Positions 24,783-62,914 of a stretch of 64,000 bases of DNA are shown in pieces. The notes beneath the pieces are model-generated. The model was not told the DNA's origin, ran no database searches, and worked only from the letters and a program-made list of their open reading frames with translations. Location: contig JAFRUH010000025.1 in assembly GCA_017438975.1 (NCBI GenBank), positions 124,001 to 188,000 of the forward strand, in the 5' to 3' direction. Origin of the DNA: Bacteroidales bacterium (GTDB lineage Bacteria; Bacteroidota; Bacteroidia; Bacteroidales; UBA932). Position 1 is the stretch's first letter; the number at the start of each line of letters is the position of its first letter. A program made the translations under genes and the position numbers.

Positions 24783-26872
24783 AGCGGATCCACGTCAATG
24801 GCGATATACCCTGCGTAACGGCGCTCCCGCTCGAAGGAAGCGATCGTTTCCCAAATCCGTAACTTCTTGTTTTTCAGCGTCCTGTCACGCTGAAGAAGGA
24901 TTCTGATATGCCGGATGTACTGCCCTGCGATCCGGTCCGGGGAGGGCGCGTAAGGGCCGGTCACGGCAACTGGGATTCCAGACAAGGCGGCAGCAAGGGC
25001 AGAGGAATGCGACGCGAGACGGTCGTGATCGGTATCCTTCAGGATGACGGCGACCATGCGCGTATAGGGAGGATAAGAGAAAGCCCGCCGCTCGGAGAGC
25101 ATGGTCCCGACAAGTCCGTCCCCGGAGCCTTCCAGGGCCTTGATGACCGGGTGGTCCGGTTCGTCGGTCTGTATGATGAGAAGCCCCTTCTCTCCCCTTC
25201 TGCCGGAACGGCCACGGAATTGCTCCAGAAGCTGGAATGCCCGTTCATCCGCCCGGAAATCCTGCCGGGCAAGCAGCCCGTCCGCGTGGATGACGGCTAC
25301 AAGGGACAGGCGGTCGAAATCGAATCCCTTCGTGACCATCTGCGTTCCGACTAGGATGTCGGTACGGCCCTCGGCGAAATCCCGGACTACGGCTGCGTCT
25401 CCCCCTGTATCGCTGTCCAGGCGGCCGATCGAGGCCTCCGGGAACAGAGCCTTAAGTTCTTCCTCGACCCGCTGGGTCCCGGAGCCGAGGGGATGGAGCG
25501 TCCCCCCGCAGCGGGCACAATGCCCGGTAAAAGGTTCAGAATGACCGCAATAGTGGCAGACGAGGGTCTCCCGGGCACCCCATTTGTGCAGGCTGACCGG
25601 CACGTTGCAGCGGGGGCACTTGACCACCGTACCGCATTCCTCGCACTGGACCGATGGAGAGAAAGAACGGCGGGCCCGGAGCACCAGCACCTGTCCATGC
25701 CCGGAGAGGGTCCGGACCATCTCTTCCAGGAGTTTCCGGGACAGGCTTCCGACCATTCCCCTTTTCCGCCGTTCGGCGCGCGTGTCGATGACCCGGACTT
25801 CCGGACGCTCGCCCTCATAATACCTCTTTTCAAGCGTAACCATCCCGTAAATCCCGGCCTCTGCATTGTAGAGGGACTCCAGTGACGGGGTCGCACTGCC
25901 CAGAATCACCCGAGCCCCGTGGAAACGGGAGAGCATGATCGCGGCATCCCTTCCGTGATAGCGGGGAGCCGGAGCATCCTGCTTGTAGGAAGAATCGTGC
26001 TCCTCGTCGACCACGATCAGCCCCAGGTCCCGGTGCGGGAGGAACAGGGCGGAGCGGGTCCCGAGAACGAAATACCCCTTCCCTTTCCGGCAGCGGGCGG
26101 CTACCTCGCGTTTGCGGGACGGAGCGATTGAGGAGTGGAATACCAATACCTGCGGAAAGACCTCCCGGATCCGCTCTTCCAGCTGGCGGCTCAGGGCGAT
26201 TTCGGGGACGAGATACAGGACATTCTTTCCTGCAGACAGGGCTTCCTGTGCGAGGGACATATAAATCTGTGTCTTCCCGGATCCGGTCACGCCCTTCAGA
26301 AGGGCCGTCTTCCCGGAACGGAAAACTTCCCGGATTTTCTCCATGGCAAAGCTCTGGGGTTCCGTCAGACGGACGGGGTTGAACCGGACAGGTCCGTCTC
26401 CCGTCGCGGCCAGTTCCGCTTCCAGTTCCCGGACGGTCCCGGCATAGCGCTCGCGGGTGGCGTCGGTCCTGGCTTTTTCCAATTTCGTTTTCCAGGCCTC
26501 CAGTCGGGCCTTCAGCCGCTCTTCCTGTCTTCGGCCGGTTTCTTCTTCCTGGATCTTTTCAGAGGGATAGGCGGCCTTGAACACTTCTCCGACCGAACAG
26601 AGATAATACTCGGCAACCCTTCGCCAGAAAGCGATTTCCACTTCGGAAACGGCGGGGAGTCCGGGCAGGAAGGCATCCACGGGGCGGATCCTGGAGGGAT
26701 CGGTTTCCGGAGTGACATCGACTTCGGAAACGACGCCGTAATATCGTCTTCCTGCGAACGATACGGTCACACGGTCCCCGACCCCGACAGTCTCTTCGGT
26801 CGTCCGGTAGCAGGGTTCCCATTCCAGTTTCAGGGGCAGGATTACTTTGATATATCGCCTCGTTTCCACCAT
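24779..26872 (-). CDS. priA: Primosomal protein N' (replication restart helicase)
   Basis: 697 residues from the ATG at 26872. The N-terminal DNA-binding region (about 1-180) is followed by the helicase core: Walker A LKGVTGSGKTQIYMSLA, Walker B VVDEEHD, and a zinc-binding insertion with four CxxC pairs (CEECG, CPRC, CHYCG, CARCG). SGRSGRRGEKGLLIIQT is the late helicase motif. It reloads the replisome at stalled forks. It converges with the symporter gene by a 4-nt overlap. Confidence 0.96.
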   Translation of the reverse strand: MVETRRYIKVILPLKLEWEPCYRTTEETVGVGDRVTVSFAGRRYYGVVSEVDVTPETDPSRIRPVDAFLPGLPAVSEVEIAFWRRVAEYYLCSVGEVFKAAYPSEKIQEEETGRRQEERLKARLEAWKTKLEKARTDATRERYAGTVRELEAELAATGDGPVRFNPVRLTEPQSFAMEKIREVFRSGKTALLKGVTGSGKTQIYMSLAQEALSAGKNVLYLVPEIALSRQLEERIREVFPQVLVFHSSIAPSRKREVAARCRKGKGYFVLGTRSALFLPHRDLGLIVVDEEHDSSYKQDAPAPRYHGRDAAIMLSRFHGARVILGSATPSLESLYNAEAGIYGMVTLEKRYYEGERPEVRVIDTRAERRKRGMVGSLSRKLLEEMVRTLSGHGQVLVLRARRSFSPSVQCEECGTVVKCPRCNVPVSLHKWGARETLVCHYCGHSEPFTGHCARCGGTLHPLGSGTQRVEEELKALFPEASIGRLDSDTGGDAAVVRDFAEGRTDILVGTQMVTKGFDFDRLSLVAVIHADGLLARQDFRADERAFQLLEQFRGRSGRRGEKGLLIIQTDEPDHPVIKALEGSGDGLVGTMLSERRAFSYPPYTRMVAVILKDTDHDRLASHSSALAAALSGIPVAVTGPYAPSPDRIAGQYIRHIRILLQRDRTLKNKKLRIWETIASFERERRYAGYIAIDVDPL

Positions 26873-26897
26873 ATACGCAAATGTAAGCAAAATTCAT

Positions 26898-26905
26898 TAT
26901 ATTTG
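26898..26905 (+). promoter_or_regulatory. -7 box for the histidine acid phosphatase gene (leaderless geometry)
   Basis: TATATTTG ends 4 nt before the ATG at 26910, so transcription would start at or next to the start codon. Confidence 0.6.
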
Positions 26906-26909
26906 TCCT

Positions 26910-28205
26910 ATGAAGAGATTTCTTGTTATCTGCGTCCTCGCCGCCATCGCGGCCGGACCCTGTCTCGCCCAGCGCACAGGCATACGCGAAGAAGTCCGCC
27001 AGGACAGAACCCTCCCCCTCGGTCCCGACAAGGTCTATGATTTCGATGTCCCCGAACTGACCCCGGCCCCGGAAGGATATGAGCCCGTCTATCTCAGCCA
27101 CTATGGACGACACGGCTCCCGATACGCCTACTCGTCGAGGACTTACGGATTCCTGCAGGAAGCCCTCGCGGAAGGGGCGGCGACCGGCAACCTGACGCCA
27201 TATGGAGCGAAGCTGAAAGAGGACCTGGAGCCCTTCTTCGAGGCCGTGACCAACCACGTAGGGGAACTGACCCGGAAAGGATGGGACCAGCTCTACGGAA
27301 TCGGCCGCCGGATGGTCGAATTCTTCCCCACCGTCTTTCCGGACGGAGCCTGGGTGGACGCCGGCGTTTCTCCTTCGATCCGTTCGGTCATGAGCATGAA
27401 TGCCTGCTGCCTGGCGATCGGCCAGTCCCGCCCGGAGGTGCGGATCTTCGAGCATCAGACCTGGGACGATCTCCGGTCCGCACGGCCCAATATGGGCTAT
27501 AAGGACGCCTATGCCTTCATCGGAGCCCCCTGCCCCACACAGGAATCTTCCGCCAGTTTCATCGAAAGGACGGTCGACTGGAAAGCCATCCTCGGAAGGA
27601 TATTCAAGGATCCGGCAGCGGCTCTCGGAAGGTACAAGCCGGCCGATGCGCTCGATTACCTGTATATGATGGTCGCCGGAATGGAAAGTCTGGACGACGG
27701 AATCGTTCCGGACGTGTCGGGCATCTTCACCCGGGAGGAATTCGCGACGATGTGGGAGGCGGACAACTACCTCCGGTACCGGGAGTATTACGAGTATCTC
27801 GCACCCTGCTGCTCGATATACGAGGACATCATCGAAAGGGCGGACGAGCACCTGTCTGACGGAAGCCGCGGCGCGGATCTCCGGTTCGGTCACGACCATG
27901 TCCTGCTGACGCTCCTGATGATCGCGGATATCGAGGCTTTCGGCCATTTTGCCTCACGCCCCGAGGATGTCGCCTTCACCTTCCAGAATTTCCGTTCCCC
28001 GATGGGCGGAAACCTTCAGTTCGTTTTCTACGGGAAGGAGGAATCCTCCCCCGCAGCAGGCTTGCCCGATGTCCTCGTACAGGTTATCCTGAACGGGGAG
28101 GAGACTTGGTTCAGCGGCCTCGAACCGGCCGTCGGGCCTTTCTACGACTGGACGGAACTCAAGGCCTTCCTTTCCGGAAGGATGGACCTTTTCCGCAAAC
28201 CATAG
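26910..28205 (+). CDS. Secreted histidine acid phosphatase (MINPP/phytase-like)
   Basis: 431 residues from the ATG at 26910, which begins a signal peptide ending AGPCLAQ. The branch-2 histidine phosphatase motif GRHGSRY has the nucleophile H68, and the proton donor region is G-H328-D329. This places it with multiple inositol polyphosphate phosphatase / phytase-like enzymes. It probably acts in the periplasm or on the cell surface to release phosphate from inositol phosphates or other phosphomonoesters; the substrate is inferred from the family. Confidence 0.88.
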   Translation: MKRFLVICVLAAIAAGPCLAQRTGIREEVRQDRTLPLGPDKVYDFDVPELTPAPEGYEPVYLSHYGRHGSRYAYSSRTYGFLQEALAEGAATGNLTPYGAKLKEDLEPFFEAVTNHVGELTRKGWDQLYGIGRRMVEFFPTVFPDGAWVDAGVSPSIRSVMSMNACCLAIGQSRPEVRIFEHQTWDDLRSARPNMGYKDAYAFIGAPCPTQESSASFIERTVDWKAILGRIFKDPAAALGRYKPADALDYLYMMVAGMESLDDGIVPDVSGIFTREEFATMWEADNYLRYREYYEYLAPCCSIYEDIIERADEHLSDGSRGADLRFGHDHVLLTLLMIADIEAFGHFASRPEDVAFTFQNFRSPMGGNLQFVFYGKEESSPAAGLPDVLVQVILNGEETWFSGLEPAVGPFYDWTELKAFLSGRMDLFRKP

Positions 28206-28235
28206 GGCTATTTGTGTGCGATATTGAAAAAATAT

Positions 28236-28266
28236 TTGCGGAAACCAAAATTAGTCCCTATATTTG
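28236..28266 (+). promoter_or_regulatory. Promoter of tRNA-Phe
   Basis: TTG at 28236-28238, a 20-nt spacer, then TATATTTG at 28259-28266. It matches the Bacteroidota sigma-ABfr -33/-7 pattern, and the tRNA begins 16 nt downstream. Confidence 0.7.
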
Positions 28267-28281
28267 CATTCCCAAAGCGAT

Positions 28282-28354
28282 GGTGCTGTAGCTCAGATGG
28301 TAGAGCAATGGACTGAAAATCCATGTGTCGGCAGTTCGATTCTTCCCAGCACCA
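28282..28354 (+). tRNA. tRNA-Phe (GAA)
   Basis: 73 nt with a complete cloverleaf. The acceptor arms GGTGCTG and CAGCACC pair perfectly, the D arm begins TAGCTCAG, the anticodon loop is CTGAAAA giving GAA, and the T arm contains GTTCGATTC. The discriminator is A. The 3' CCA is not encoded (CAA follows), as is common in this phylum. Confidence 0.97.
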
Positions 28355-28359
28355 CAACA

Positions 28360-28395
28360 AACGCCATTCTACATTCATAGAATGGCGTTTTTATT
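28360..28395 (+). terminator. Rho-independent terminator after tRNA-Phe
   Basis: A perfect 12-bp stem (28360-28371 with 28378-28389), a 6-nt loop, and a T-rich tail. It is T-rich on the plus side and A-rich upstream, so it may also serve the converging ABC-ATPase operon. Confidence 0.85.
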
Positions 28396-28419
28396 TCTAT
28401 TTGTACCAACTTTTTGCAC

Positions 28420-29085
28420 CTATACCTCCTTTGATGTCAGATATCCGTGCCTTACCAGATCTTCCCTGCAGCGCACCAGGTTGGTATATCCGTCGGCAAT
28501 GACAAAGAGATCGTCTGCGACGGTGGAGATAGCATCGTAGTTGTGGTCGGTTACGATGATGCCGTGGCCTTTGGCGCGATCCCGGATCATCGCCTGGACT
28601 TCGCCTATATTGACAGGATCGACCAGGGTGAAAGGCTCGTCCAGGATATAGAAAAGGGCTTCACTTTGCAGTACCAGATACAGTTCGGCCAGTCTCGCCT
28701 CACCGCCGGAGAGTTCATAGATATGAGAATTGCGGTGCCTGGAATACTTTGGAAAGCAACTGACGAAAGTCCAGAAGTCCACGCCAGACAGTTCAAAGGC
28801 ACGATGCAGTTTCATCCCTTCCGGGATCAGCCGGCCTTGAGGAAGATATTTGACAGAATTGCCGATATACTGCCGGTCGACGGGTTTTTCATCGATGCTC
28901 ACCATCACGTTCTCCACACGGAGGCCGCCCATCAGCGCACGGAACATACAGGATTTTCCGGCGCCGTTCCGGCCCAGAAGTCCGGTGACTGTGCCGGTTT
29001 CCGAGGTGATATAGCCTCCGCTGAGGACCGTCCTCTCTCCAAAACGGACCACAACGCTGTCCACTATGAGTTTGTGCTTATCCAT
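28420..29085 (-). CDS. ABC transporter ATP-binding protein
   Basis: 221 residues, a single nucleotide-binding domain. Walker A is G38-R-N-G-A-G-K44-S45, the signature is LSGGE at 125-129, Walker B ends D149-E150, and the switch His lies in IIVTDHNYD. It is close to the LptB/YhbG class in some motifs (TDHN), but its neighbours are not Lpt genes. It overlaps the small membrane protein by 8 nt, and with the LytTR gene forms a three-gene operon. The 105-residue 3-TM neighbour is the only candidate permease, so the transporter is either minimal or uses a permease elsewhere. Confidence 0.88.
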   Translation of the reverse strand: MDKHKLIVDSVVVRFGERTVLSGGYITSETGTVTGLLGRNGAGKSCMFRALMGGLRVENVMVSIDEKPVDRQYIGNSVKYLPQGRLIPEGMKLHRAFELSGVDFWTFVSCFPKYSRHRNSHIYELSGGEARLAELYLVLQSEALFYILDEPFTLVDPVNIGEVQAMIRDRAKGHGIIVTDHNYDAISTVADDLFVIADGYTNLVRCREDLVRHGYLTSKEV

Positions 29086-29395
29086 GGATCAGAAGCATAA
29101 CGGTCATAAGGAGAGCGAAGGCAAGGAAATCGATCAGGATGATACTGACGAGCAATCTGCGGCGGGACAGGCCCAGGTTTATATAAAAGAATATGGCATC
29201 CCGGTCCCGGAACTGCTCCGCCAGGTACAGGGTGATGGCCATGATCAGGGCCTTCAGGATAAAAGCATCCACGAAGAACATATAGGAAAATCCGCCGGCA
29301 AGAAGCGCGGCACAGACCATGGCATACACGGCGCCGACCAGGAACTGCGCCTTACCGTAGCGCCAGGTAAGTGATATGCGGTTCCGAAGGGTCAT
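29078..29395 (-). CDS. Small 3-TM membrane protein, putative minimal permease
   Basis: 105 residues with three hydrophobic segments (about 15-35, 40-58 and 83-103) separated by a charged cytoplasmic loop that contains EQFRDRDAIFFYINLGLSR. That loop, with its LGLSRRRL run, resembles the coupling region of ABC-2-type permeases. I do not recognise a named family. It overlaps both neighbours (4 nt with the LytTR gene, 8 nt with the ATPase), so a shared complex is likely. Confidence 0.7.
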   Translation of the reverse strand: MTLRNRISLTWRYGKAQFLVGAVYAMVCAALLAGGFSYMFFVDAFILKALIMAITLYLAEQFRDRDAIFFYINLGLSRRRLLVSIILIDFLAFALLMTVMLLIHG

Positions 29396-30117
29396 TCCGA
29401 GGCAGGGGTCAATACGGCTTTGACAGTATCCTTGTACTTCCGGGAAACGGGAATGGACTGGCCGTTGATGGAAACGAAATCGGGAGCAGTCAAAACGGCA
29501 TCGGCGATCCGGACCAGGAAAGCCCTATGAACGCGGAGGAAAGATGGGCCCAGGAGATTTTCCCATTGGCCGATTCCGGTTTTGTTTCGGTACTGCCGGC
29601 CGTTCCGGGTCACGACCCAAACCTCGGAGTCCCGGGATTCAACATAGAGGATATCCTCTTTCTTCAATGATACTTTCTTATAATCCGAAGTGAAAGTAAT
29701 GGGGCGGTCCGTAGGATACTTCTTATCCAACCATTTTACTATCAAATAGTTCCCATAGGCAAGAATGGCGAGGACGGCCGCCACGAAGACGGGATTGCCC
29801 AGCATGGCGGGAAGACTCCATCTGGCGCTGTCGCTGCGGTAGATAACCGTGATGAAGAGAAACTGCCACAAATAGATGAGCAAGAAAGTCATCATCATCA
29901 CTCCCAGGATAATGCAGACCGTATCCAAGACACGCTTCTTTCCGGTTTCGCTCCTTTCTACTTTGGGGAGGAAGAAAGAGAGGGCCAGAGCTGCCGGGAG
30001 GAACGAAAGGCTCATCAGGGCCGCCGCCCACAGGTCGTAATCCAGACTCATGAGCAAGACGGCCGTCAGAAAAACAGCGGCCAGCCAGTAAGCGACAATG
30101 ATAAACATTTTCTTCAT
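29392..30117 (-). CDS. LytTR-family regulator with N-terminal membrane domain
   Basis: 241 residues from the ATG at 30117; an alternative ATG is at 30108. Four TM helices fill about residues 4-125, then a LytTR DNA-binding domain from about 140 to 241, seen in VSLKKEDILYVESRDSEVWV, YRNKTGIGQWENLL and FLRVHRAFLV. There is no response-regulator receiver domain, so the signal probably enters through the membrane part. A TATTTTTG box ends 8 nt before the ATG. First gene of the three-gene ABC module, which it may control. Confidence 0.85.
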   Translation of the reverse strand: MKKMFIIVAYWLAAVFLTAVLLMSLDYDLWAAALMSLSFLPAALALSFFLPKVERSETGKKRVLDTVCIILGVMMMTFLLIYLWQFLFITVIYRSDSARWSLPAMLGNPVFVAAVLAILAYGNYLIVKWLDKKYPTDRPITFTSDYKKVSLKKEDILYVESRDSEVWVVTRNGRQYRNKTGIGQWENLLGPSFLRVHRAFLVRIADAVLTAPDFVSINGQSIPVSRKYKDTVKAVLTPASE

Positions 30118-30125
30118 TTCCAATA

Positions 30126-30133
30126 CAAAAATA
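30126..30133 (-). promoter_or_regulatory. -7 box of the LytTR/ABC operon
   Basis: TATTTTTG on the minus strand, 8 nt before the ATG at 30117. The predicted transcription start is within a few bases of the start codon. Confidence 0.55.
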
Positions 30134-30218
30134 CGCATTCTTCCGTGATTATGAACGCATTGGAATACGGCACTTTGCAAATCAGGGGGATTTGACCGAG
30201 GGTCGAAGGGATTCTGCT

Positions 30219-30250
30219 TTGCAAAAGTGAATGAACCGTGCGTACCTTTG
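30219..30250 (+). promoter_or_regulatory. Promoter of the ExbB-like gene
   Basis: TTG at 30219-30221, a 21-nt spacer, and TACCTTTG at 30243-30250, 47 nt upstream of the ATG at 30298. It is divergent from the LytTR promoter. Confidence 0.6.
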
Positions 30251-30297
30251 CAAAAGGAATTCCAAACCCGATTGTTCAACCCTTAATCCGTTTCGTC

Positions 30298-30630
30298 ATG
30301 TTACCTTTGAAAGCAGATTTATTCACCCTCTTCGTCTCCGGCGGTCCTGTCGGAATGATCGTCATCACCCTTCTTTTCATCGCGTTGTTCTTCGCGGCCT
30401 GGAAAGCCCCCGCCTGGGTCAAGGAGATCGGCATCTCCGCCCTCGTCGTGGGCGTATTCTGGACAGTGCTCGGCTGGCTCCAAATCTTGGATTTCATGGC
30501 CGGTCATGATGATGTCGCACACAATATCGTCGCCGGCGGCGTCAAAGTCAGTCTGATTCCGGCCCTATACGGGCTCATCGTGTACTTTGTCTCCCTGATC
30601 CTGCGCGTAATCCATAAGCCCAGGATCTGA
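30298..30630 (+). CDS. Short MotA/TolQ/ExbB-like membrane protein
   Basis: 110 residues from the ATG at 30298. Three TM helices are visible (about 13-32, 41-60 and 84-105). FVSGGPVGMIVITLLFIALF and IPALYGLIVYFVSLI resemble the core helices of TolQ/ExbB proton-channel proteins, but it is far shorter than full-length ExbB (about 220 residues) and lies alone, with no ExbD or TonB nearby. It could be a minimal orphan member; the family call is by pattern. Confidence 0.6.
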   Translation: MLPLKADLFTLFVSGGPVGMIVITLLFIALFFAAWKAPAWVKEIGISALVVGVFWTVLGWLQILDFMAGHDDVAHNIVAGGVKVSLIPALYGLIVYFVSLILRVIHKPRI

Positions 30631-30659
30631 GGACTTTCCTGACAGTGGGCCTGTTCATC

Positions 30660-30719
30660 TGTCATTCGGCTGTCACACTTTCCGCAGTCCAGCCCACAGA
30701 TGGCAATCAACCGTTTCAT
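30660..30719 (-). pseudogene. Truncated DUF3795 gene start
   Basis: From the ATG at 30719 the first 16 residues read MKRLIAICGLDCGKCD, the signature N terminus of DUF3795 (two Cys pairs for metal). After that the reading departs from the family and the frame runs antisense through the ExbB-like gene. A TATCTTTG box is still present 5 nt before the ATG. It is best explained as a 3'-truncated gene next to an insertion or deletion junction. The exact 3' limit of homology is uncertain. Confidence 0.55.
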
Positions 30720-30724
30720 AACCG

Positions 30725-30732
30725 CAAAGATA
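30725..30732 (-). promoter_or_regulatory. -7 box of the DUF3795 remnant
   Basis: TATCTTTG on the minus strand, 5 nt before the remnant's ATG. It is immediately preceded (minus-strand sense) by the 10-bp inverted repeat. Confidence 0.5.
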
Positions 30733-30733
30733 G

Positions 30734-30759
30734 GTCCTTGCAGTCATTCCTGCAAGGAC
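30734..30759. repeat. Perfect 10-bp inverted repeat
   Basis: The arms at 30734-30743 and 30750-30759 pair perfectly around a 6-nt loop. It overlaps the -33 area of the remnant's promoter, so it may have been an operator; it has no T-run to act as a terminator. Confidence 0.6.
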
Positions 30760-30947
30760 TTGCCTTCTTTGAGCGGTTCTCTTCTGCTACATAACTATTT
30801 GAAAATCAACCCAATTCATGATCAAAGGGTGCTAAAAACATCACCCCTTGATATCTTTTCTAATTGAAACACAATCAGTTAGGTAGCAGGCATGCAAACA
30901 GCATTTCTCATGATGTGGAGTTTAGGACTTTTCTCTCCGAAAATCAC

Positions 30948-30955
30948 TATATTTG
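30948..30955 (+). promoter_or_regulatory. -7 box of the MazG-like/DUF2075 cassette
   Basis: TATATTTG on the plus strand, 26 nt upstream of the MazG-like ATG at 30982. It is the only promoter-like element seen for the two-gene cassette. Confidence 0.6.
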
Positions 30956-30981
30956 TTTCGCGAAACCCTTATCATCTTAAT

Positions 30982-31311
30982 ATGTCTGACATCGAAGAAA
31001 TCCTGTCCCAACTGCGCAGGTTCAATCAAGAGCGCGACTGGGATCAATTCCACAATGGAAAGGACCTGGCTATCGGCATATCAGTGGAAGCTTCTGAATT
31101 GCTGGAAGCGTTTCTGTGGAAGAAACCCGAGGATGTCAATCCGGACAAAATCCATGAGGAACTGGCTGATATCTTAAACTACAGCTTCCAGATGGCTGAT
31201 AAGTATAATCTTGACATTAAAGAGATTATGCTTGAGAAGATACGCAAGAATGCAGAAAAGTATCCTGTAGATAAATCGAAAGGAAGCGCTAAAAAGTATA
31301 ACGAACTATAA
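30982..31311 (+). CDS. MazG-like nucleotide pyrophosphohydrolase
   Basis: 109 residues from the ATG at 30982. A single MazG/all-alpha NTP pyrophosphatase domain is seen, with metal-binding acidic residues in VEASELLEAF and EELADILNYSFQMADKY (the ExxE and ExxD pair). It would hydrolyse (d)NTPs, probably non-canonical or dCTP-like, to monophosphate and pyrophosphate. Codon use and GC content are visibly lower than in the flanking genes. It lies 8 nt upstream of the DUF2075 helicase gene and shares a promoter, so the two are likely a functional pair. Confidence 0.88.
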   Translation: MSDIEEILSQLRRFNQERDWDQFHNGKDLAIGISVEASELLEAFLWKKPEDVNPDKIHEELADILNYSFQMADKYNLDIKEIMLEKIRKNAEKYPVDKSKGSAKKYNEL

Positions 31312-31319
31312 TCTTTGAA

Positions 31320-33209
31320 ATGATTGTTTACAACGCAAATAAAGAACTGTTCGTACAAGATGTCAAGACCGGTGTCATCGCAACTAAAATTCTCAATCTC
31401 ATTAGGGAAAAGGGATTGAATGCCGGTCAGGAAAGAGAATTCGCATCCTGGCACAATTCTATGAAGTTCATGAGGGATATCGTCGATGACCCTGAGATTG
31501 ACGACGATGTGCAGATTGCCATTGAATACAATATCCCTCAAACCTCCAAGCGTGTCGATTTTATCATAATAGGATCGAATGCTTCAAATAACGAGAGCAT
31601 TGTCATAGTAGAACTGAAGCAGTGGAGCCGGGCTGAGGTGGTAGATGATGACATGCATTTCAGTGTGCGTACATATGTTGCAAATGACAAAAGAATCGTC
31701 TGTCACCCTTCATATCAGGCATACTCTTATTCCCGTTTCCTGGCCAACTACTCCCAGGCTATACACGAAAAGCACATTCATCTGATACCTTGCGCTTATC
31801 TGCACAATTACTTGCCGGCTTACAAGTCGGCATTAGCCGCCGGCATTTATAAGGATTGGTACACGTCTGCTCCTTTTTTCATCATGGATGAGGTTCAGCA
31901 GTTCAATGCCTTCATAAAAAAGTTCATAACGAAAAAGTCTTCACAGGGGGATCTCCTTTACCTCATAGAGAATGGTCGTATCAAACCGACTAAGTCTCTA
32001 CAGGATGCACTGGCAACGATGGTCAGGGGTACACCCGTCTTTGACCTCCTGGACGAACAGGCGGTATGTTTCGATATGTGTATCCGCACTATGCTCCAGT
32101 GTCTGAAGGATAAGAAAAAACGTACAATCCTTGTGCAAGGTGGCCCTGGAACAGGCAAATCTGTACTGGCCGTCAACCTTCTCCTTCATTTCATCACCTG
32201 TTCCTGCAATGCTGCCTACGTTACTAAGAACAGTGCTCCCAGACAGGCTTTTCTATCCATTCTCTCCAAAAACAAGGCTGAAAACATCGCGGAAATCAGT
32301 CAGCTCTTCCGTTCTCCTTTCGGCCTCTCGCAAGTCCCACGAAATTCATATGACTGCCTGATTGTTGACGAAGCGCATAGGCTCGTTAATAAGATGTATG
32401 GAGACTGGAATGGCGAGAACCAGGTCAAAGAATGTATAAACGCATCACTTCTAACTGTCTTTATGCTGGATGAAGACCAGGCTGTTACCACCAAGGATAT
32501 CGGAAGCGTTCAAGAAATCAGCCGGTGGTGCAAGAATCTGGGATCCACTATCATCATGCGGGAAGAAACCAAGTTGACTTCCCAGTTCCGTTGCAATGGC
32601 AGTGATTCTTATCTCCAGTTTATAGACAATTTGTTACAAAGAGGCAAGGAAACAGTTTCCGTATCTCTTTCGGAGCTTAATTATGACTTCCGCATCTTCG
32701 ACGACGCCTCGCAGATGCGTGACGTTCTGCGCGAGAAAAATGCCGGAAATAACAAGGCCCGCATGGTAGCCGGATACTGCTATGACTGGAATGTCAAACA
32801 TTACAGAGGGGACATTGACATTGAATTACCCGGTGGTTTCCAGGCAAAATGGAACCTTGAGAATGACAAGATATGGGCAATCAACCCCAACTCTTTCGAA
32901 GAGGTCGGCTGCATCCATACCGCTCAGGGTTTGGAGTTCGACTATGTCGGTGTGCTGATAGGTAAAGACCTTAGATTCGACGAACAATCCGGACGAGTGA
33001 TTACTGACAAAAGTGCAATTTCAAAAGACGATAAGTCTTCTGGCATACGCAGCGCCAGCAATGAAGAAGCCCATCGTCTTATCTTGAATACATACAAGAC
33101 TCTCCTAACCCGTGGGCAAAAGGGTTGTTTCGTATACTGCGAGGACGAAGCGTTAAAGAATTATTTCAAAAGAATGATTAGATCAGCCCATGATCTTCAG
33201 GATGCTTAG
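31320..33209 (+). CDS. DUF2075-type helicase with N-terminal PD-(D/E)XK-like nuclease domain
   Basis: 629 residues. The N-terminal 200 residues contain a PD-(D/E)XK-like pattern: D80 in KRVDFIII and E98-L-K100 in VIVELKQW. The superfamily-1-like ATPase follows: Walker A G274-GPGTGK280-S, Walker B D350-E-A-H353, a LDEDQAV motif III region, SQFRCNGSD, IHTAQGLEFDYVGVLIG and LLTRGQKGCFVYCED. This is the DUF2075 (Schlafen-like ATPase) architecture seen in many defence-associated proteins. With the MazG-like gene it forms a low-GC cassette. The defence role is inference from domains and context. Confidence 0.88.
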   Translation: MIVYNANKELFVQDVKTGVIATKILNLIREKGLNAGQEREFASWHNSMKFMRDIVDDPEIDDDVQIAIEYNIPQTSKRVDFIIIGSNASNNESIVIVELKQWSRAEVVDDDMHFSVRTYVANDKRIVCHPSYQAYSYSRFLANYSQAIHEKHIHLIPCAYLHNYLPAYKSALAAGIYKDWYTSAPFFIMDEVQQFNAFIKKFITKKSSQGDLLYLIENGRIKPTKSLQDALATMVRGTPVFDLLDEQAVCFDMCIRTMLQCLKDKKKRTILVQGGPGTGKSVLAVNLLLHFITCSCNAAYVTKNSAPRQAFLSILSKNKAENIAEISQLFRSPFGLSQVPRNSYDCLIVDEAHRLVNKMYGDWNGENQVKECINASLLTVFMLDEDQAVTTKDIGSVQEISRWCKNLGSTIIMREETKLTSQFRCNGSDSYLQFIDNLLQRGKETVSVSLSELNYDFRIFDDASQMRDVLREKNAGNNKARMVAGYCYDWNVKHYRGDIDIELPGGFQAKWNLENDKIWAINPNSFEEVGCIHTAQGLEFDYVGVLIGKDLRFDEQSGRVITDKSAISKDDKSSGIRSASNEEAHRLILNTYKTLLTRGQKGCFVYCEDEALKNYFKRMIRSAHDLQDA

Positions 33210-33254
33210 CATCCACAGATTTCAAAAAAACTTGCACATATTGGCGCAGCGTGT

Positions 33255-33262
33255 TATATTTG
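33255..33262 (+). promoter_or_regulatory. -7 box for the AbrB-like gene
   Basis: TATATTTG on the plus strand, 28 nt upstream of the ATG at 33291. It separates the AbrB/acyltransferase pair from the helicase gene transcriptionally. Confidence 0.6.
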
Positions 33263-33290
33263 TAGGAAATTTCATACAAGTATAACTATT

Positions 33291-33497
33291 ATGCAGGAAA
33301 AAGAAGGCAAGTACATCTTCGGTGTCGTGAAGGTGGGAGAAAAGGGGCAGATCGTGATTCCGCGGGATGCCCGCAATCTGTATGACATCAATCCGGGAGA
33401 CACGCTGCTCGCCCTGGGAGACCGGAACGGCATCGCTCTCGTGAAGCAGGAAGTATTCCAGAAGGCAGTGGAAGAGGTAATGGGAGGGAACAAATAA
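33291..33497 (+). CDS. AbrB/MazE/SpoVT-family DNA-binding protein
   Basis: 68 residues. The swapped-hairpin AbrB core is at about residues 9-50 (VGEKGQIVIPRDAR, INPGDTLLALGD), with a short helical tail. There is no MazF-type toxin next to it, so it is more likely a transcription regulator than an antitoxin. Its stop shares one base with the start of the acyltransferase gene (TAATG), indicating coupling. Confidence 0.88.
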   Translation: MQEKEGKYIFGVVKVGEKGQIVIPRDARNLYDINPGDTLLALGDRNGIALVKQEVFQKAVEEVMGGNK

Positions 33498-34603
33498 TGA
33501 GAAAGCATTGGTTGGACAATCTGCGCTGGGGGACCGTGCTCCTGGTGCTGTTTTATCACGTTATCTATTTCTTCAACAACAAAGGAGTCTTCGGCGGAAT
33601 CGGCGGCTTCAGCGACGGGCCGCAGTACCAGGATGCTGTGATGTACATCCTGTATCCATGGTTCATGCCGTTGCTGTTTCTGCTGGCGGGAATCAGCGCC
33701 CGGTACGCACTGGAAAAGCATCCGGCGCGGGAATGGTTCAAGGCCCGCACCCGGAAACTGCTGGTGCCGGGAACGATCGGCCTCTTCGTATTCCACTGGA
33801 TGGTCGGATACTTCAACACGGCCGTCGCCGCCAGAAGCGGCGAACTGGACGGCATGCCCGGAGTGGGCAAGTTCATCATGTGGGCAATCAGCGGCACGGG
33901 GCCCCTCTGGTTCATCCAGGTGCTCTGGCTGCTCAGTCTCGTCCTGCTCCTCGTAAGGGCGATGGACCGCAAGGAGAAGTTCTATGCCTGGTGCGACAGG
34001 GCATTCTCCGGGAAAGCGGGCATCGTATGGATCATCCTGCTCGGAGTCCTTTTCTGGGCGGCCTCGCTCACCTTGATCCAAAATCCCCGTCCAGAGTCCG
34101 CGGACGGTCTCCTGAACCTGTACAAGCCGCTCTTCTATCTGGTCCCCTTCCTCCTCGGATACTTCGTATTCCCGCACGAGACGGTGCAGGAGAAACTGGG
34201 GAGCGCATGGGTGCCTCTCCTCATCTGCGCCGTCATCGCCGGAGGAATTCTCGTCAGCACCACCTTCGGTCAGGACAACACCCATCCGAAATACCTTTCC
34301 AGCCCCCTCAACTGCATCTACGGCTGGCTCATGTGCCTCGCCATGACGGCCATGTTCAAAGCCCGCTTTGACCGTACGGGAGCTTTCGCCGCTTACATGA
34401 CCCGTTCCAGCTACGGACTCTATATCGTCCACTATCTGGTCGTCGCGAGCCTGGGCTATATGATGAAAACGTACACCCAGTTGCCCCCCCTGGCCATTTA
34501 TGCAATCCTGACGGTTGCCGTGTTCACCCTCTCTCCCCTCCTCTACGAGATTATCCGCCGCATCCCGTTCATCCGGTGGTGCGTGCTCGGAGAGCGCCGC
34601 TAA
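33497..34603 (+). CDS. Acyltransferase family 3 membrane protein
   Basis: 368 residues with about ten TM helices. The N-terminal WLDNLRWGTVLLVLFYHVIYFF contains the family's Arg and His active-site positions. Proteins of this family transfer acetyl or other acyl groups to sugars of polysaccharides or lipids in the membrane. The substrate is unknown. It is co-transcribed with the AbrB-like regulator and converges with the NUDIX-HD gene with a 4-nt overlap (CTAA). Confidence 0.88.
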   Translation: MRKHWLDNLRWGTVLLVLFYHVIYFFNNKGVFGGIGGFSDGPQYQDAVMYILYPWFMPLLFLLAGISARYALEKHPAREWFKARTRKLLVPGTIGLFVFHWMVGYFNTAVAARSGELDGMPGVGKFIMWAISGTGPLWFIQVLWLLSLVLLLVRAMDRKEKFYAWCDRAFSGKAGIVWIILLGVLFWAASLTLIQNPRPESADGLLNLYKPLFYLVPFLLGYFVFPHETVQEKLGSAWVPLLICAVIAGGILVSTTFGQDNTHPKYLSSPLNCIYGWLMCLAMTAMFKARFDRTGAFAAYMTRSSYGLYIVHYLVVASLGYMMKTYTQLPPLAIYAILTVAVFTLSPLLYEIIRRIPFIRWCVLGERR

Positions 34604-35622
34604 ACCGGGGTCCCGGGACCTTCCTCCCGGTATATCCTGTCGAAAATAACCCTGAGACCGGGTTCATCCCGGATCATCGCGCGGAGTGCTTCCAGGCGCT
34701 CCGCGTTCGGTGATTCCGGAATCCAGAGTTTCAGATAGCCACCTTCGGCATATTTTTCATGGAGATGCTCCAGGGTCCTTTCCCAATGACCCTCCCTGGG
34801 CAGCTCGGGATAATGGGCCAGGCCGAACTGGATGGTTCTCCGGATGATCTGTTCGGGCTCGATGAGCCGGTCGGCCTCGGCGACGATCCGCCCGTACAGG
34901 GAGCGGGGTTCATGGTCCGATGATGCGCGGTGGTCCTCCGCCGCCATGGCGATTTCTTCAATGGCATCATCGGAGAACCAGCGCCGGAGTTCCGTCATTT
35001 CCCTGATGATCCGTCCACTTTCCAGATGGTGCGTCTTCCGGTCCACGGCCAGTCCGAGATCATGGCAGGCGGCAGCGGCATAGAGCAGGTTCCTGTCCAC
35101 GGGATAAAATGCAGCGAGTGAGAGGGCTCGCGAGACGACTGACCTGGCATGGTCCTCCCGATGAGCCTTGTCGAAAGCCGCATATCGGGGAATGACCGAA
35201 GATTCGATGAAAACGGCGAGGGACGGGGCGACACACAGCAGTTCCGCCGCCAGCAGCGGCAGGATATCCTCGTCAGCAGGGAGCCACCGGACCTCCCGGA
35301 GTTCCGGATAAGATAGCCAACGGGCCGCCTCATGCTCATTCAAATGCAAGGCCTCGGAGGTCAGGGAGCATAGGAAACAGTGGAGGGTCAGGTGGAATTC
35401 GGGATAATCCCAGTCCACCGTATGAAGGAGCCGGTCGATCCGGATTTCGGTGGACAGTTCCTCGCGGATCTCCCGGACGAGGGCCGTTTCCGGAGTCTCT
35501 CCGGGCTCCATCTTGCCACCCGGGAATTCCCACCAGTCCTTGAATTTCCCGTATCCCCGCTGCGTGGCGAAAATGCGGTCATCCCTTCGAAGGACGGCCG
35601 CAACGACTTCTATTCTTTTCAT
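34600..35622 (-). CDS. NUDIX-HD fusion (MutT-like pyrophosphohydrolase plus HD phosphohydrolase)
   Basis: 340 residues from the ATG at 35622. Residues 1-130 are a MutT/8-oxo-dGTPase-like NUDIX domain with a complete Nudix box at 36-58 (G36, R50-E-x-x-E54-E55). Residues about 140-340 are an HD domain with metal ligands H158, H187-D188 and further His at 198-199. The NUDIX half would sanitise damaged nucleotides; the HD half may act on nucleotides or (p)ppGpp-like molecules. Both active sites look intact. The fusion is unusual. It is a single reading frame, so it does not look like an assembly error. Confidence 0.85.
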   Translation of the reverse strand: MKRIEVVAAVLRRDDRIFATQRGYGKFKDWWEFPGGKMEPGETPETALVREIREELSTEIRIDRLLHTVDWDYPEFHLTLHCFLCSLTSEALHLNEHEAARWLSYPELREVRWLPADEDILPLLAAELLCVAPSLAVFIESSVIPRYAAFDKAHREDHARSVVSRALSLAAFYPVDRNLLYAAAACHDLGLAVDRKTHHLESGRIIREMTELRRWFSDDAIEEIAMAAEDHRASSDHEPRSLYGRIVAEADRLIEPEQIIRRTIQFGLAHYPELPREGHWERTLEHLHEKYAEGGYLKLWIPESPNAERLEALRAMIRDEPGLRVIFDRIYREEGPGTPV

Positions 35623-35639
35623 TTCGTTCGGACACGGGG

Positions 35640-35804
35640 TCATTTCTTCAGCCTTCCGCTCTTCTTCAGGGCCTCGGCGATGATCCACTGCAACTGGCCG
35701 TTGATGCTGCGGAACTCGTCCGCAGCCCAACGTTCCAATGCATCCATCGTTTCCGGGTCCACCCTAAGGACGAACGACTTGACGGTATCTTTATCCTTGG
35801 CCAT
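35640..35804 (-). CDS. Small ribbon-helix-helix (Arc-like) DNA-binding protein
   Basis: 54 residues. It begins MAKDKDTVKSFVLRVDPET, a short beta-strand, followed by two helices (MDALERWAADEFRSINGQL and WIIAEALKKSG), the typical RHH layout. It starts 1 nt downstream of the SPFH gene stop, so the two are co-transcribed, and ends 17 nt before the NUDIX-HD ATG. The SPFH-RHH pairing is common in this phylum; the link may be regulatory. Confidence 0.8.
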   Translation of the reverse strand: MAKDKDTVKSFVLRVDPETMDALERWAADEFRSINGQLQWIIAEALKKSGRLKK

Positions 35805-35805
35805 G

Positions 35806-36747
35806 TCAATAGAGGCTTCCGGAATTCACGACCGGCTGGGCGGGTTCATCTCCGCAGAGGACGACCAGCAGGTTGCTGACCATCGCGGCCTTGCGCTCCT
35901 CGTCGAGATCCACGACACCTTCAGCCTTGAGTTTGTCGAGGGCCATCTTGACCATGCTGACCGCACCGTCGACGATCTTCTCGCGGGCGGCGATAATCGC
36001 GTCGGCCTGCTGGCGGCGGAGCATCACGGCTGCAATCTCGGGTGCATAGGCCAGGTAATTGATCCGGGCTTCCGTAACATGCATGCCGGCCATGGAAAGG
36101 CGGTCGTTGAGCGTCCGGACAAGTTCCTCGTTGATCTGCTCGGCGTTGCTGCGGAGCGTCAGGGCGTCGGGCGTGTCGGGATTGTCATAGGAGTAGCAGC
36201 CGGCGATCTGGCGGAGAGCCGCGTCACTCTGCACCCGGACGAAATTTTCAAAGGCCTGGGAAAGCAGCCTGACGGAACCGGAACGGGATCCTGCGGTACC
36301 GTAGGCGGCCAGCGACTGGCTGTCAATCTCGAAGAGGGCCTTGTAGGTATCCTGGAGTTTCCAGACCAGGACCATGCCGATCATCACAGGGTTTCCGGAC
36401 CGGTCGTTCACCTTGATCGGATCCGGGTTGAGGTTCCGGGCGCGGAGACTGACAGGCTTCTTGCTCATCAGCGGGTTGACCCAGAAGAAACCCGTCCGGT
36501 CAAACGTGCCGCAGTATTTTCCAAAGAACACGAGCACTTTCGCCTCGTTTGGTTCCTGCTTGATGAAACCGTTCATATAGATTCCGAAGCAGATGAGAAG
36601 GACGCCGCCGAGAATGGCGAAGGAAGCATCGCCGTCGGCAAGGATGAAACAATAGATCATTGCTGCGAAAAGGACGATCGCAAGCAAAAGGGCGATAAAG
36701 CCGTTCAATACGAAGCCTTTGTAGGCGAATTCTTGGTTGGTATCCAT
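35806..36747 (-). CDS. SPFH/Band 7 domain membrane protein
   Basis: 313 residues from the ATG at 36747; a GTG two codons earlier is possible. Two N-terminal TM helices (about 10-50) precede an SPFH domain ([19 protein letters not shown], and [21 protein letters not shown]) and a coiled-coil tail with [33 protein letters not shown]. Such proteins form membrane scaffolds. A TACCTTTG box lies 36 nt upstream, divergent from the EamA promoter. Confidence 0.92.
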
Positions 36748-36783
36748 GGTCACTAAAATTAAAATAGTATCATTTTGATATCA

Positions 36784-36814
36784 CAAAGGTAAAACAAACG
36801 ATTTGATTCTCCAA
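36784..36814 (-). promoter_or_regulatory. Promoter of the SPFH-RHH operon
   Basis: TACCTTTG at 36784-36791 on the minus strand with TTG (36812-36814) 20 nt upstream. Confidence 0.6.
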
Positions 36815-36831
36815 ATATTTTTTCATCAAAT

Positions 36832-36861
36832 TTGACAATCCGCCCGAATTCAGTATTTTTG
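36832..36861 (+). promoter_or_regulatory. Promoter of the EamA-glycerate operon
   Basis: TTG at 36832-36834, a 19-nt spacer and TATTTTTG at 36854-36861, 35 nt upstream of the ATG at 36897. Confidence 0.6.
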
Positions 36862-36896
36862 TATCATAAGAGTGTCGATCCGAAAGCAACCGAACG

Positions 36897-37850
36897 ATGA
36901 GTAAGCATCGGTTCCTATATCACCTGACCGCCCTGACCGTTTCCGCCGTCTGGGGCGTCACTTTTGTATCGACAAAGGTGCTTATCAACGCCGGGATGCA
37001 ACCGATGGCCATCTTCGCCGTCCGCTTCCTCGTCGCTTACGCGGGAATCTGGCTGTTCTCCCTCCCGAGACCCGAAGCAAGGCGCGTCTGGAGCCGGACT
37101 TGGAAAGACGAACTCGTCTTCCTGTTCCTTGGGATCACCGGCGGGTCTCTCTATTTTTTAATGGAGAATACCGCGCTCGCGCATACGCAGGCGAGCAACG
37201 TCTCATTTTTAGTCTGCTCCGCTCCCCTGTTCACGGCTCTCCTTACCTTGCTTTGGAGAAAAATCGGCAGGGGCCGCTTCGTCGATGGACTGGAAGACAT
37301 CAGGGCGGGATGGCCCCTTCTCCTCGGGACCCTGCTGGCGCTCTCCGGAATGGCCTTGCTGGTCTTCGACGGATCGAGGGTGCATTTCTCCGCAAAAGGG
37401 GACCTTCTCGCCGTCGGCGCCGCCCTTTGCTGGGCATTTTACAGCCTGTTCATGGGCGAGATGACCCATACCTACGGGTCCGTTTTCGCCACCCGGAAAG
37501 TGTTCTTCTACGGACTTCTGACCATCCTTCCGATGGCAGGGACTTTCGGGGAATCACTCTCCCCTTCCATCCTGTTCCGGCCCGAAGTCATCCTGAATCT
37601 CCTGTTCCTCGGGCTGATCGCCTCCCTCGCGGGATTCATCGCCTGGAACCTCGCCATGGACAAACTGGGAAACGTCACCTCCACGAATTACGTCTATATG
37701 AATCCGGTCTTCACCCTGGTCTTCGCAGTCGCCTTCCTCGGAGAGAGAATGACCCTCTCGGGGGCGCTCGGAAGCCTGGCGATCCTTGCCGGCGTCTTCC
37801 TCGCCGGACTTCGGAGACCCGAGGACAAACCCGAAATGATACGATCCTGA
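36897..37850 (+). CDS. EamA-family (DMT) transporter
   Basis: 317 residues with ten TM helices arranged as two EamA repeats (about 8-155 and 170-310); the first begins AVWGVTFVSTKVLINAG and the second contains ALCWAFYSLFMGEM. It is a metabolite exporter or importer of the drug/metabolite superfamily. It precedes glycerate kinase by 2 nt, so the substrate could be linked to glycerate or hydroxypyruvate metabolism; this is inference from position. Confidence 0.9.
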   Translation: MSKHRFLYHLTALTVSAVWGVTFVSTKVLINAGMQPMAIFAVRFLVAYAGIWLFSLPRPEARRVWSRTWKDELVFLFLGITGGSLYFLMENTALAHTQASNVSFLVCSAPLFTALLTLLWRKIGRGRFVDGLEDIRAGWPLLLGTLLALSGMALLVFDGSRVHFSAKGDLLAVGAALCWAFYSLFMGEMTHTYGSVFATRKVFFYGLLTILPMAGTFGESLSPSILFRPEVILNLLFLGLIASLAGFIAWNLAMDKLGNVTSTNYVYMNPVFTLVFAVAFLGERMTLSGALGSLAILAGVFLAGLRRPEDKPEMIRS

Positions 37851-37852
37851 AT

Positions 37853-38998
37853 ATGGCACCTTTACACAGAATCATCGTCGCCTCGGATTCCTTCAAGGGA
37901 TCCCTTCCCTCCTGGGAAGTCGCGGAAGCCGTCGAAAAGGCGGTCAGGGAGGTCTGCCCCGGCTGCGAGGTCACATGCCTGAGCGTCGCCGACGGCGGAG
38001 AAGGTACGGCCGAAGCTTTGTGCAAGGCCTTTTCCGGGGAGATGCTGGCCATCCGCGTCCGGGGACCGCTTTCCGATCCGGTCGAGGCCCGTTACTGCAT
38101 CGCCGGAGAAGCGGGCAAGCGCACGGCCGTCCTGGAAATGTCGCAGGCAAGCGGTCTTTCGCTCGTTCCGCCGGAAAAAAGGAATCCCTTGCTGACCTCC
38201 ACCGTCGGCACGGGGGACATGATCGCGGACGCCTTGGACCGGGGTTGCCGGGACTTTCTCATCGGCATCGGCGGGAGCGCCACGAACGACGCCGGAACCG
38301 GCATGCTCTCCGCCCTGGGATGGAGGTTCCTGGACCGGGAGGGAAAGGAACTCCCGCCGGTCGGCGGATCCCTCGGAAAAATCGTGTCCATCGATGACCG
38401 GAATGTCCGGAAGGAGCTGAAAGACTGCACTTTCAAGGTTGCCTGCGACGTGGACACTCCGTTCTGCGGACCGGTCGGCGCGGCGCCGGTATTCGCCCCC
38501 CAGAAAGGAGCGGATCCGGAGATGGTCCGCCGCCTGGACGACGGGATGGCCTCTTTCGCGAAAGTCATCCGGGCTCATACCGGAAAAGACATCGCAGGGC
38601 TCCCGGGAGCCGGAGCCGCCGGAGGACTCGGGGGCTGCTTCCATGCCTTCCTGGACGCTACGCTCCTCAAAGGAGCCGAGATGGTTCTACGGGCCATCGG
38701 GTTCGACGAGAAAGCCGCCGGCGCGGACCTTGTCGTGACCGGCGAAGGAAGGATGGACTTCCAGACAGACCATGGCAAGACCCCTTGCTGCGTCCTGGAA
38801 CGGTCTTCCGCCCTCGGGATACCCGCGATCGCCCTCGCCGGGAGCGTCGCGACCGGCGACCAGGCCAGCCGCCTCCCCTTCCTGGCCATTCTCCCCGTCA
38901 CGCCCCCGGACATGCCCCTGGAAACGGCCATGCGAAGGGACGTTGCCTTCCACAATGTCTACCTGACCATGAAAAAATACCTCCAAAGCCATGATTAA
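37853..38998 (+). CDS. glxK: Glycerate kinase
   Basis: 381 residues, the length of the type-1 glycerate kinase family. The N terminus IIVASDSFKGSLPSWEVAEA and the motif SVADGGEGTAEAL are family hallmarks, as are IGIGGSATNDAGTGML and VVTGEGRMDFQT. It phosphorylates D-glycerate to 2- or 3-phosphoglycerate, feeding glycolysis. It overlaps the permease gene by 8 nt. A long alternative frame across this region is a shadow. Confidence 0.95.
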   Translation: MAPLHRIIVASDSFKGSLPSWEVAEAVEKAVREVCPGCEVTCLSVADGGEGTAEALCKAFSGEMLAIRVRGPLSDPVEARYCIAGEAGKRTAVLEMSQASGLSLVPPEKRNPLLTSTVGTGDMIADALDRGCRDFLIGIGGSATNDAGTGMLSALGWRFLDREGKELPPVGGSLGKIVSIDDRNVRKELKDCTFKVACDVDTPFCGPVGAAPVFAPQKGADPEMVRRLDDGMASFAKVIRAHTGKDIAGLPGAGAAGGLGGCFHAFLDATLLKGAEMVLRAIGFDEKAAGADLVVTGEGRMDFQTDHGKTPCCVLERSSALGIPAIALAGSVATGDQASRLPFLAILPVTPPDMPLETAMRRDVAFHNVYLTMKKYLQSHD

Positions 38999-61420: not shown

Positions 61421-61432
61421 CTTATTAAATTA

Positions 61433-62913: not shown

Positions 62914-62914
62914 A

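Follow-up and report, generated by a model that had tools for sequence, protein, structure and literature searches.

A mobile gene pair joining a MazG-like pyrophosphohydrolase to a nuclease-helicase protein in Bacteroidales: a candidate anti-invader module

A 64,000-nucleotide stretch of a Bacteroidales genome (lineage UBA932; GenBank assembly GCA_017438975.1, contig JAFRUH010000025.1, positions 124,001 to 188,000), hereafter the window, carries a two-gene unit encoding a small MazG-like nucleotide pyrophosphohydrolase and a large protein with a PD-(D/E)XK-like nuclease part and a helicase part. The pair is a real, mobile, accessory unit. Its MazG subfamily is tied to the helicase strongly, though not exclusively, and the nuclease module has been exchanged while MazG stays the constant member. 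We read the pair as an accessory, horizontally moving anti-invader module, in which a helicase-nuclease effector would be accompanied by a pyrophosphohydrolase of the deoxycytidine triphosphate (dCTP) type, and we hold this reading at about even confidence. Distribution and gene context suggest the defence function; we further infer DNA as the target, a dCTP-type substrate and cooperation of the two proteins. The parts of the unit, in window positions, are as follows.

30982..31311, plus strand: MazG-like (DCTPP1-like) nucleotide pyrophosphohydrolase, 109 amino acids, identified by PF12643, conserved catalytic residues and solved-structure matches
31320..33209, plus strand: nuclease-helicase, 629 amino acids (DUF2075 / SLFN-g3 helicase protein), identified by PF09848 (E 9.8e-90)
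31524..31625, plus strand: PD-(D/E)XK-like signature, residues E69 to W102 (E69, D80, E98-x-K100), invariant in alignments
32118..33146, plus strand: SF1-type (superfamily 1) helicase domain, residues 267-609, from the PF09848 alignment and invariant motif residues

The initial annotation of this DNA had treated the two genes, 8 nucleotides apart, as a unit that should recur elsewhere; both reading frames are present as described, and the search for homologous pairs bears out their co-occurrence. In a genus sample of 121 genomes, with 16 MazG places in 15 genomes and 35 helicase places in 27, an SLFN-g3 helicase gene follows MazG directly on the same strand at 14 of the 16 MazG places, against 0.026 expected (expected adjacencies assume uniform placement and genomes of 2.2 and 3.6 Mb). 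The two exceptions are a gene at a contig edge (G423; G and L numbers denote genomes and loci of this analysis) and a MazG match stopping at residue 86-87 (G004). A phylum draw of 296 genomes holds 22 MazG places and 35 helicase places, the latter from at most six scored candidates per genome, so that second helicases may be missed; 13 of the 22 MazG genes directly adjoin a helicase and another, in G272, is separated from it by one gene (0.011 expected). Among 77 loci of close helicase relatives, an adjacent same-strand MazG gene was found in 53, upstream in 45 (including L067, whose broken frame was counted by hand) and downstream in 8; at three further loci MazG lies 3.3-4.5 kb upstream on the same strand. 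Examples of the pair come from Bacteroidota, Bacillota, Actinomycetota, Pseudomonadota, a halophilic archaeon, phages and plasmids.

Mobile elements carry both genes. In 72,556 plasmid records, MazG was found in 29 and the helicase in 39; 12 plasmids hold both, 7 of these within 700 bp. In 50,697 phage records there are 15 with a MazG match and 4 with the helicase; the latter all have MazG no more than 0.5 kb away, on the same strand in 3 and on the opposite strand in 1. The pair is present in a Microcystis phage, and a helicase scan of viral contigs returned 7 loci with MazG adjacent in 2 and one gene away in 1; one of these three contigs carries the genes among terminase, portal and head genes. 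Such occurrences would also fit auxiliary replication or nucleotide-metabolism genes that serve the phages and plasmids themselves. We consider this very unlikely, given the rarity of the helicase among the phage records and the host-type defence genes among the scanned chromosomal and plasmid neighbours. The tight two-gene layout, with frames touching or overlapping in many loci, could likewise recall a toxin-antitoxin pair with MazG as the antidote, which is extremely improbable: the genomes G026, G030 and G056 have window-type helicase genes and no MazG match, the gene order is reversed in the 8 downstream loci of the 77, and loci with the helicase alone and with MazG alone weigh against it.

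The large protein matches the complete PF09848 SLFN-g3 helicase profile (E 9.8e-90, 301.8 bits, profile positions 1-354 of 354) over residues 267-609. Across all 46 aligned sequences, the window protein included, D80, E98, K100, K280, D350, E351 and H353 do not vary, and neither do E69, Q101, W102, Q387, R424, Q536, G537, E539 and R598; A352 of the DEAH motif (350-353) is alanine in 41 of the 46. Both the complete SF1-like ATPase (K280, DEAH) and the D80/E98-x-K100 nuclease-like signature had been pointed out in the initial annotation, and both hold up in these alignments. A wider set of N-terminal parts, among them archaeal, plasmid and viral ones, likewise keeps E69, D80, E98, K100 and W102 in 21 of 21 cases; E69, D80 and E98-x-K100 fit the PD-(D/E)XK signature of an upstream acidic residue, an aspartate and ExK. 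Because the nuclease and helicase residues are invariant, the large protein is the likely effector on DNA. Schlafen proteins proper are defined by an N-terminal Schlafen core, and this domain is not among the 21 Pfam families listed at E 0.1 for the window protein.

The small protein matches the MazG-like profile PF12643 (E 9.7e-20, 71.1 bits, cut-off 27), and E36, E39, E60 and D63, presumably the catalytic ExxE...ExxD residues of MazG, are invariant in 23 of 23 aligned sequences, in agreement with the pyrophosphohydrolase site read there before. Its frame is open from 30892; homologues favour the start at 30982. The best single-sequence matches to solved structures are RS21-C6 and dCTP pyrophosphatase 1 (E 5.8e-16), and a profile-based search places the pyrophosphatase entry 4qgp first, with RS21-C6 and dCTP pyrophosphatase 1 next. 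Aligned W, H, E and D positions and a C-terminal YPV...G.A.KY block are common to the window MazG and DCTPP1/RS21-C6. DCTPP1 is a mammalian housekeeping enzyme, whereas dCTP hydrolysis by the bacterial protein is predicted from this sequence relation, which suggests a dCTP-type pyrophosphohydrolase. RS21-C6 and DCTPP1 are named as 5-methyl-dCTP hydrolases in the accessible part of PMC10742078.

The nuclease part varies among MazG-linked helicases. Pfam GIY-YIG replaces the PD-(D/E)XK part in MazG-adjoining helicases of G090 (E 2.6e-6) and G017 (5.1e-6); it was not found by Pfam in G057. A GIY-YIG profile made of eight N-termini, one from the G090 protein and seven from phylum-draw proteins picked by eye, proves nothing on those eight; in the genus it matches in G057, G017, G400, G404, G412 and G432, and it also matches three Bacillota plasmid proteins, two of them adjoining MazG. 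The MazG of one GIY-YIG partner (L132, G017) and that of a PD-(D/E)XK partner (L135, G027) are identical at 105 of 109 residues (96%). More broadly, genus MazGs with GIY-YIG partners, or with partners carrying the S24 domain described below, are 75-87% identical to the window MazG (57% in the exception, G400), and four of their helicases are only 20-43% identical to the window helicase. A MazG tree of 13 genus rows, which omit G400 (outside the genus clade), implies at least 4 changes of partner type, with some weak branches. A single clade for the MazGs that have GIY-YIG partners, five in number, is rejected by the approximately unbiased (AU) test at p 0.0023; this group was defined once a first tree had been seen. 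In the phylum draw, MazG of G164 has a short GIY-YIG-like frame behind it. In L184:2578-3590, MazG is followed by a short GIY-YIG-like open reading frame of 231 amino acids without a helicase, apparently a decayed copy.

A constant MazG is also what one would expect if MazG were the effector. This version, close to the abortive response of the initial annotation, has MazG draining dCTP on infection with the helicase-nuclease as sensor or regulator. Defence enzymes that disrupt the deoxynucleoside triphosphate (dNTP) pool are known (accessible part of PMC12265719), and MazG counts among the predicted, still unvalidated defence domains (accessible part of PMC13092281). The invariant nuclease signature would be unneeded by a pure sensor, and there are MazG genes without an SLFN-g3 helicase and helicases without MazG; nucleotide depletion as the primary action seems to us rather unlikely.

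The distribution of the pair in related genomes is patchy. The features bordering the unit, outside it except for the promoter candidate, are these.

30948..30955, plus strand: TATATTTG, candidate Bacteroidota -7 promoter element for the pair, from a pattern match
30504..30719, minus strand: truncated DUF3795-like gene at the left junction, from a Pfam match below cut-off
33291..34603, plus strand: AbrB/MazE-like gene and acyltransferase gene of the right flank, from Pfam and searches in relatives

Matches to the large protein, some of which are weak or partial, turned up in 18 of 101 genomes, the window's genome counted among them. Of 60 genomes, 17 others match the acyltransferase of the right flank, and the stretches from 14 of them were compared. 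AbrB lies beside the acyltransferase in 12 of these stretches, and none of the 14 holds the pair; in three of the relatives, G003, G017 and G027, the pair is found on a different contig. When left-flank genes served as queries, none was found beside the right-flank unit in the 14 relatives; with no synteny on the left, a base-exact empty site could not be shown. Of an integrase, direct repeats or a tRNA as border features, none was upheld: 30000-34000 has no convincing repeats. The sole tRNA of the window sits 2.6 kb to the left of the pair, and Rfam over 26000-38000 gives only that tRNA.

Composition sets the pair apart from its surroundings, as had been noticed at first sight. The guanine-plus-cytosine (GC) fraction of 30641-33290 is 0.44 against 0.551 window-wide, and 0.65% of equal-size stretches are as low, itself included; at third codon positions (GC3) the pair has 0.51-0.52 against 0.64-0.80 in 10 named neighbour genes. 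Pairs are AT-richer than their own flanks in 11 of 12 chosen Bacteroidales loci. A pair conserved in this position in all close relatives with normal composition, the picture that would have contradicted the initial annotation, is thus not what is found: the pair is AT-rich and absent from this flank in all 14 relatives. The truncated gene described at the left junction is indeed a DUF3795-like start cut short, matching only profile positions 2-28 of 83 (19.1 bits, cut-off 22.6). For the claim that the pair has its own promoter there is a candidate: TATATTTG at 30948-30955, of the Bacteroidota-type promoter pattern TAnnTTTG, lies 26 nucleotides before the MazG start, and the pattern has 30 matches in the window against 13.8 expected.

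In other genomes, defence genes lie near the pair; chosen neighbour proteins were scanned rather than all of them. The Bacillota locus L036 is a cluster of an EVE-containing McrB-like protein with McrC, a DUF3427 type IV enzyme, a Nudix protein (PDC-S07), the pair and an HNH gene, and the DUF3427 cluster recurs by BLAST clustering in L033, L039, L050, L054, L068 and L106. Partial matches to a Mokosh-like helicase (L051) and to a DdmD-like protein (L063) were also obtained. On plasmids, MrcB_N, type I restriction-modification and ABC-3C genes lie near the pair in Priestia, type I restriction-modification adjoins it in L. salivarius, and in L. plantarum the annotation gives Nudix, DEAD/DEAH helicase, MazG and SLFN helicase. 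Neighbours were scanned in 8 of the 13 phylum-draw pair loci, picked by eye, and 7 of the 8 have a defence-like neighbour: GmrSD in L171, L175 and L183, an RdrB-like protein in L179 and, as partial matches, PDC-S60, PDC-M28B and Ppl in L170, L173 and L180. AbiEii is a neighbour in L168. Of the 17 GmrSD genes in the 14 genomes with the pair, 3 lie no more than 3 kb from it, against 0.04 expected (P about 1e-5 under uniform placement, tested after the proximity had been noticed).

Several observations on gene content stand beside these. L068:4265-9866 and L216:4380-9775 bring MazG, an SLFN helicase and Nudix together, in two gene orders, in one cluster with another large helicase, which clustering assigns to the DUF3427 type in L068 and annotation to DEAD/DEAH in L216. 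HNH nuclease genes adjoin the same MazG subfamily with no helicase directly beside it in L186:7875-9208, L187:5389-6619, L188:4232-5474 and L218:8798-10158, and in L176 an HNH gene adjoins the helicase with no MazG. EVE domains suspected by eye in genes adjoining MazG or the helicase were not borne out: of five scanned, four have Pfam HNH and one has nothing. In L009:3526-5568, L007, L008, L011, L060, L103 and L203, another SLFN-g3 helicase gene stands in tandem with the pair or the helicase, or close by. A tetratricopeptide repeat (TPR) protein is encoded directly or nearly directly upstream of MazG in L108:5629-7647, L175:5010-7016 and L182:9664-11628, and by clustering in L075 and L106; in these distant loci it is possibly a third component or sensor.

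Some partner helicases end in a Pfam S24 peptidase domain (L168, L089, L090). Eight aligned tails, those three and five chosen look-alikes, all have an Ala-Gly or Cys-Gly site, a GxSM serine and a lysine, whose roles we assume from LexA and UmuD; in L178 a phage repressor family also matches at the tail. Across loci, S24 was seen on SLFN helicases accompanying MazG, or just after them, in L168:5563-7935, L089:1501-3885, L090:988-3180, L177-L181, L183 and L102:9911-10390, called by Pfam in three loci and by alignment or our own profile in the rest. These LexA/UmuD-like tails favour a DNA-damage or repair module, in which the helicase-nuclease would process stalled forks or breaks, MazG would clean damaged or surplus dNTPs, and S24 would couple some partners to RecA/SOS; DCTPP1-type enzymes are known to sanitise dNTPs (accessible part of PMC7162842). 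A patchy, mobile, plasmid- and phage-borne spread, nuclease exchange and defence-gene neighbours are untypical of core repair, and the window helicase protein has no S24 Pfam match. We regard repair as rather unlikely.

Under the anti-invader reading, the SF1 helicase would move along foreign DNA, probably replicating or damaged, and the N-terminal PD-(D/E)XK domain would cut it. MazG would hydrolyse dCTP-type nucleotides, perhaps 5-modified dCTP, to the monophosphate, and its action may keep the pool unsuitable for the invader; alternatively, it may prevent nucleotides that are set free from modified phage DNA, or destined for it, from entering host DNA. Extended further, the pairs could form a modular defence family around a modified-dCTP pyrophosphohydrolase, in which the constant MazG removes 5-modified dCTP, an exchangeable, modification-sensitive helicase-nuclease (PD-(D/E)XK or GIY-YIG) tells phage from host DNA, and some lineages are gated by a LexA-like S24 switch reading RecA-coated single-stranded DNA. 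In this full form the idea is speculative and quite unlikely.

Several results weigh against a dedicated defence pair. Eight of the 22 phylum-draw MazG places have no helicase within 2.5 kb (one, in G192, near a contig end), 24 of the 77 helicase loci have no adjacent MazG (at least two, L052 and L076, for want of upstream DNA), and none of 7 loci in a MazG scan of viral contigs adjoins an SLFN-g3 helicase (L207 is cut by the contig end). Neither gene strictly needs the other, because helicase-only and MazG-only loci exist. Searches of solved structures found no relative of the nuclease part, and NERD membership of the N-terminal domain was rejected (18.4 bits, cut-off 22.1; probability 0.14% against a profile of six NERD-cluster proteins). 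In PADLOC the window MazG has no match, and the large protein matches helicase models only in part. Ordinary restriction-modification genes are interspersed in the type IV neighbourhood, and the neighbours of many closest Bacteroidales loci look ordinary by eye. The window's scanned neighbours include no known defence system, and in this respect the proposal of a candidate anti-phage system finds no local backing; it is strengthened by co-occurrence, mobility, AT-richness and defence genes near the pair elsewhere.

If the anti-invader reading is right, it names a widespread candidate defence family with the nucleotide enzyme as conserved hub and the nuclease as swappable part, and MazG-like enzymes, often called housekeeping, gain a testable role in phage conflict. 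With nearly identical MazGs beside two different nucleases, the natural swaps offer a direct way to test how the labour is divided.

Two other features of the window lie outside the pair. A fused Nudix-HD protein is encoded in the right flank (34600-35646, minus strand), with the AbrB-acyltransferase unit between it and the pair, and a second low-GC stretch (59921-63856, minus strand) holds a SPFH/Band_7-GYF protein, two open reading frames without Pfam matches and a DUF6175 gene.

No description of a MazG and SLFN-g3/DUF2075 helicase pair was found in the literature searched, a search in which most subscription papers lay outside and other names for the pair are possible. DUF2075 and MazG were not found together there, the DUF2075 papers carry no defence titles, and the accessible parts of PMC12839542, PMC10250203 and PMC3710099 hold nothing on the pair. 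DefensePredictor highlights a MazG pyrophosphohydrolase as a predicted defence component (accessible part of PMC13092281); that MazG may or may not belong to the same kind of pair.

Among known families, SLFN-g3 helicase / DUF2075 (PF09848) is matched by the C-terminal domain over its full length with the SF1 motif residues present; PF09848 is a domain; beyond it the window protein has a PD-(D/E)XK-like part at the N-terminus and, as a frequent partner, MazG. PADLOC models for Nhi and AbiO match the helicase part only (57-62 bits), and neither identity was adopted. The phage-defence candidate PDC-S41 of PADLOC is also an SLFN-g3 helicase protein and adjoins the pair in L009, where a protein matches it at full length with 874.5 bits. 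The window protein reaches 84 bits over residues 409-606 only, which is why this identity was rejected, and is 21% identical to the L009 protein; in further contrast, none of 16 phylum-draw helicases grouped by frames of 653-705 amino acids adjoins MazG. With type IV restriction, the relation of the pair is one of neighbourhood only, with GmrSD, McrBC, DUF3427 and MrcB_N genes elsewhere. The closest parallel in layout is the DUF3427 type IV enzyme with Nudix (PADLOC mREase_IV, PDC-S07), likewise a helicase-nuclease beside a nucleotide pyrophosphohydrolase, which shares a gene cluster with the pair in L036 and, by clustering only, in L068. An argument from Nudix specificity was dropped, the solved-structure matches being generic MutT and CTP pyrophosphohydrolases and not decisive. 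The DUF3427 system has a ResIII/Helicase_C helicase, a PLD domain and a Nudix fold of its own, families that differ from those of the pair. Were the modified-dCTP reading true, pool sanitation by MazG would serve self/non-self discrimination, in parallel to the Nudix protein beside DUF3427 type IV enzymes.

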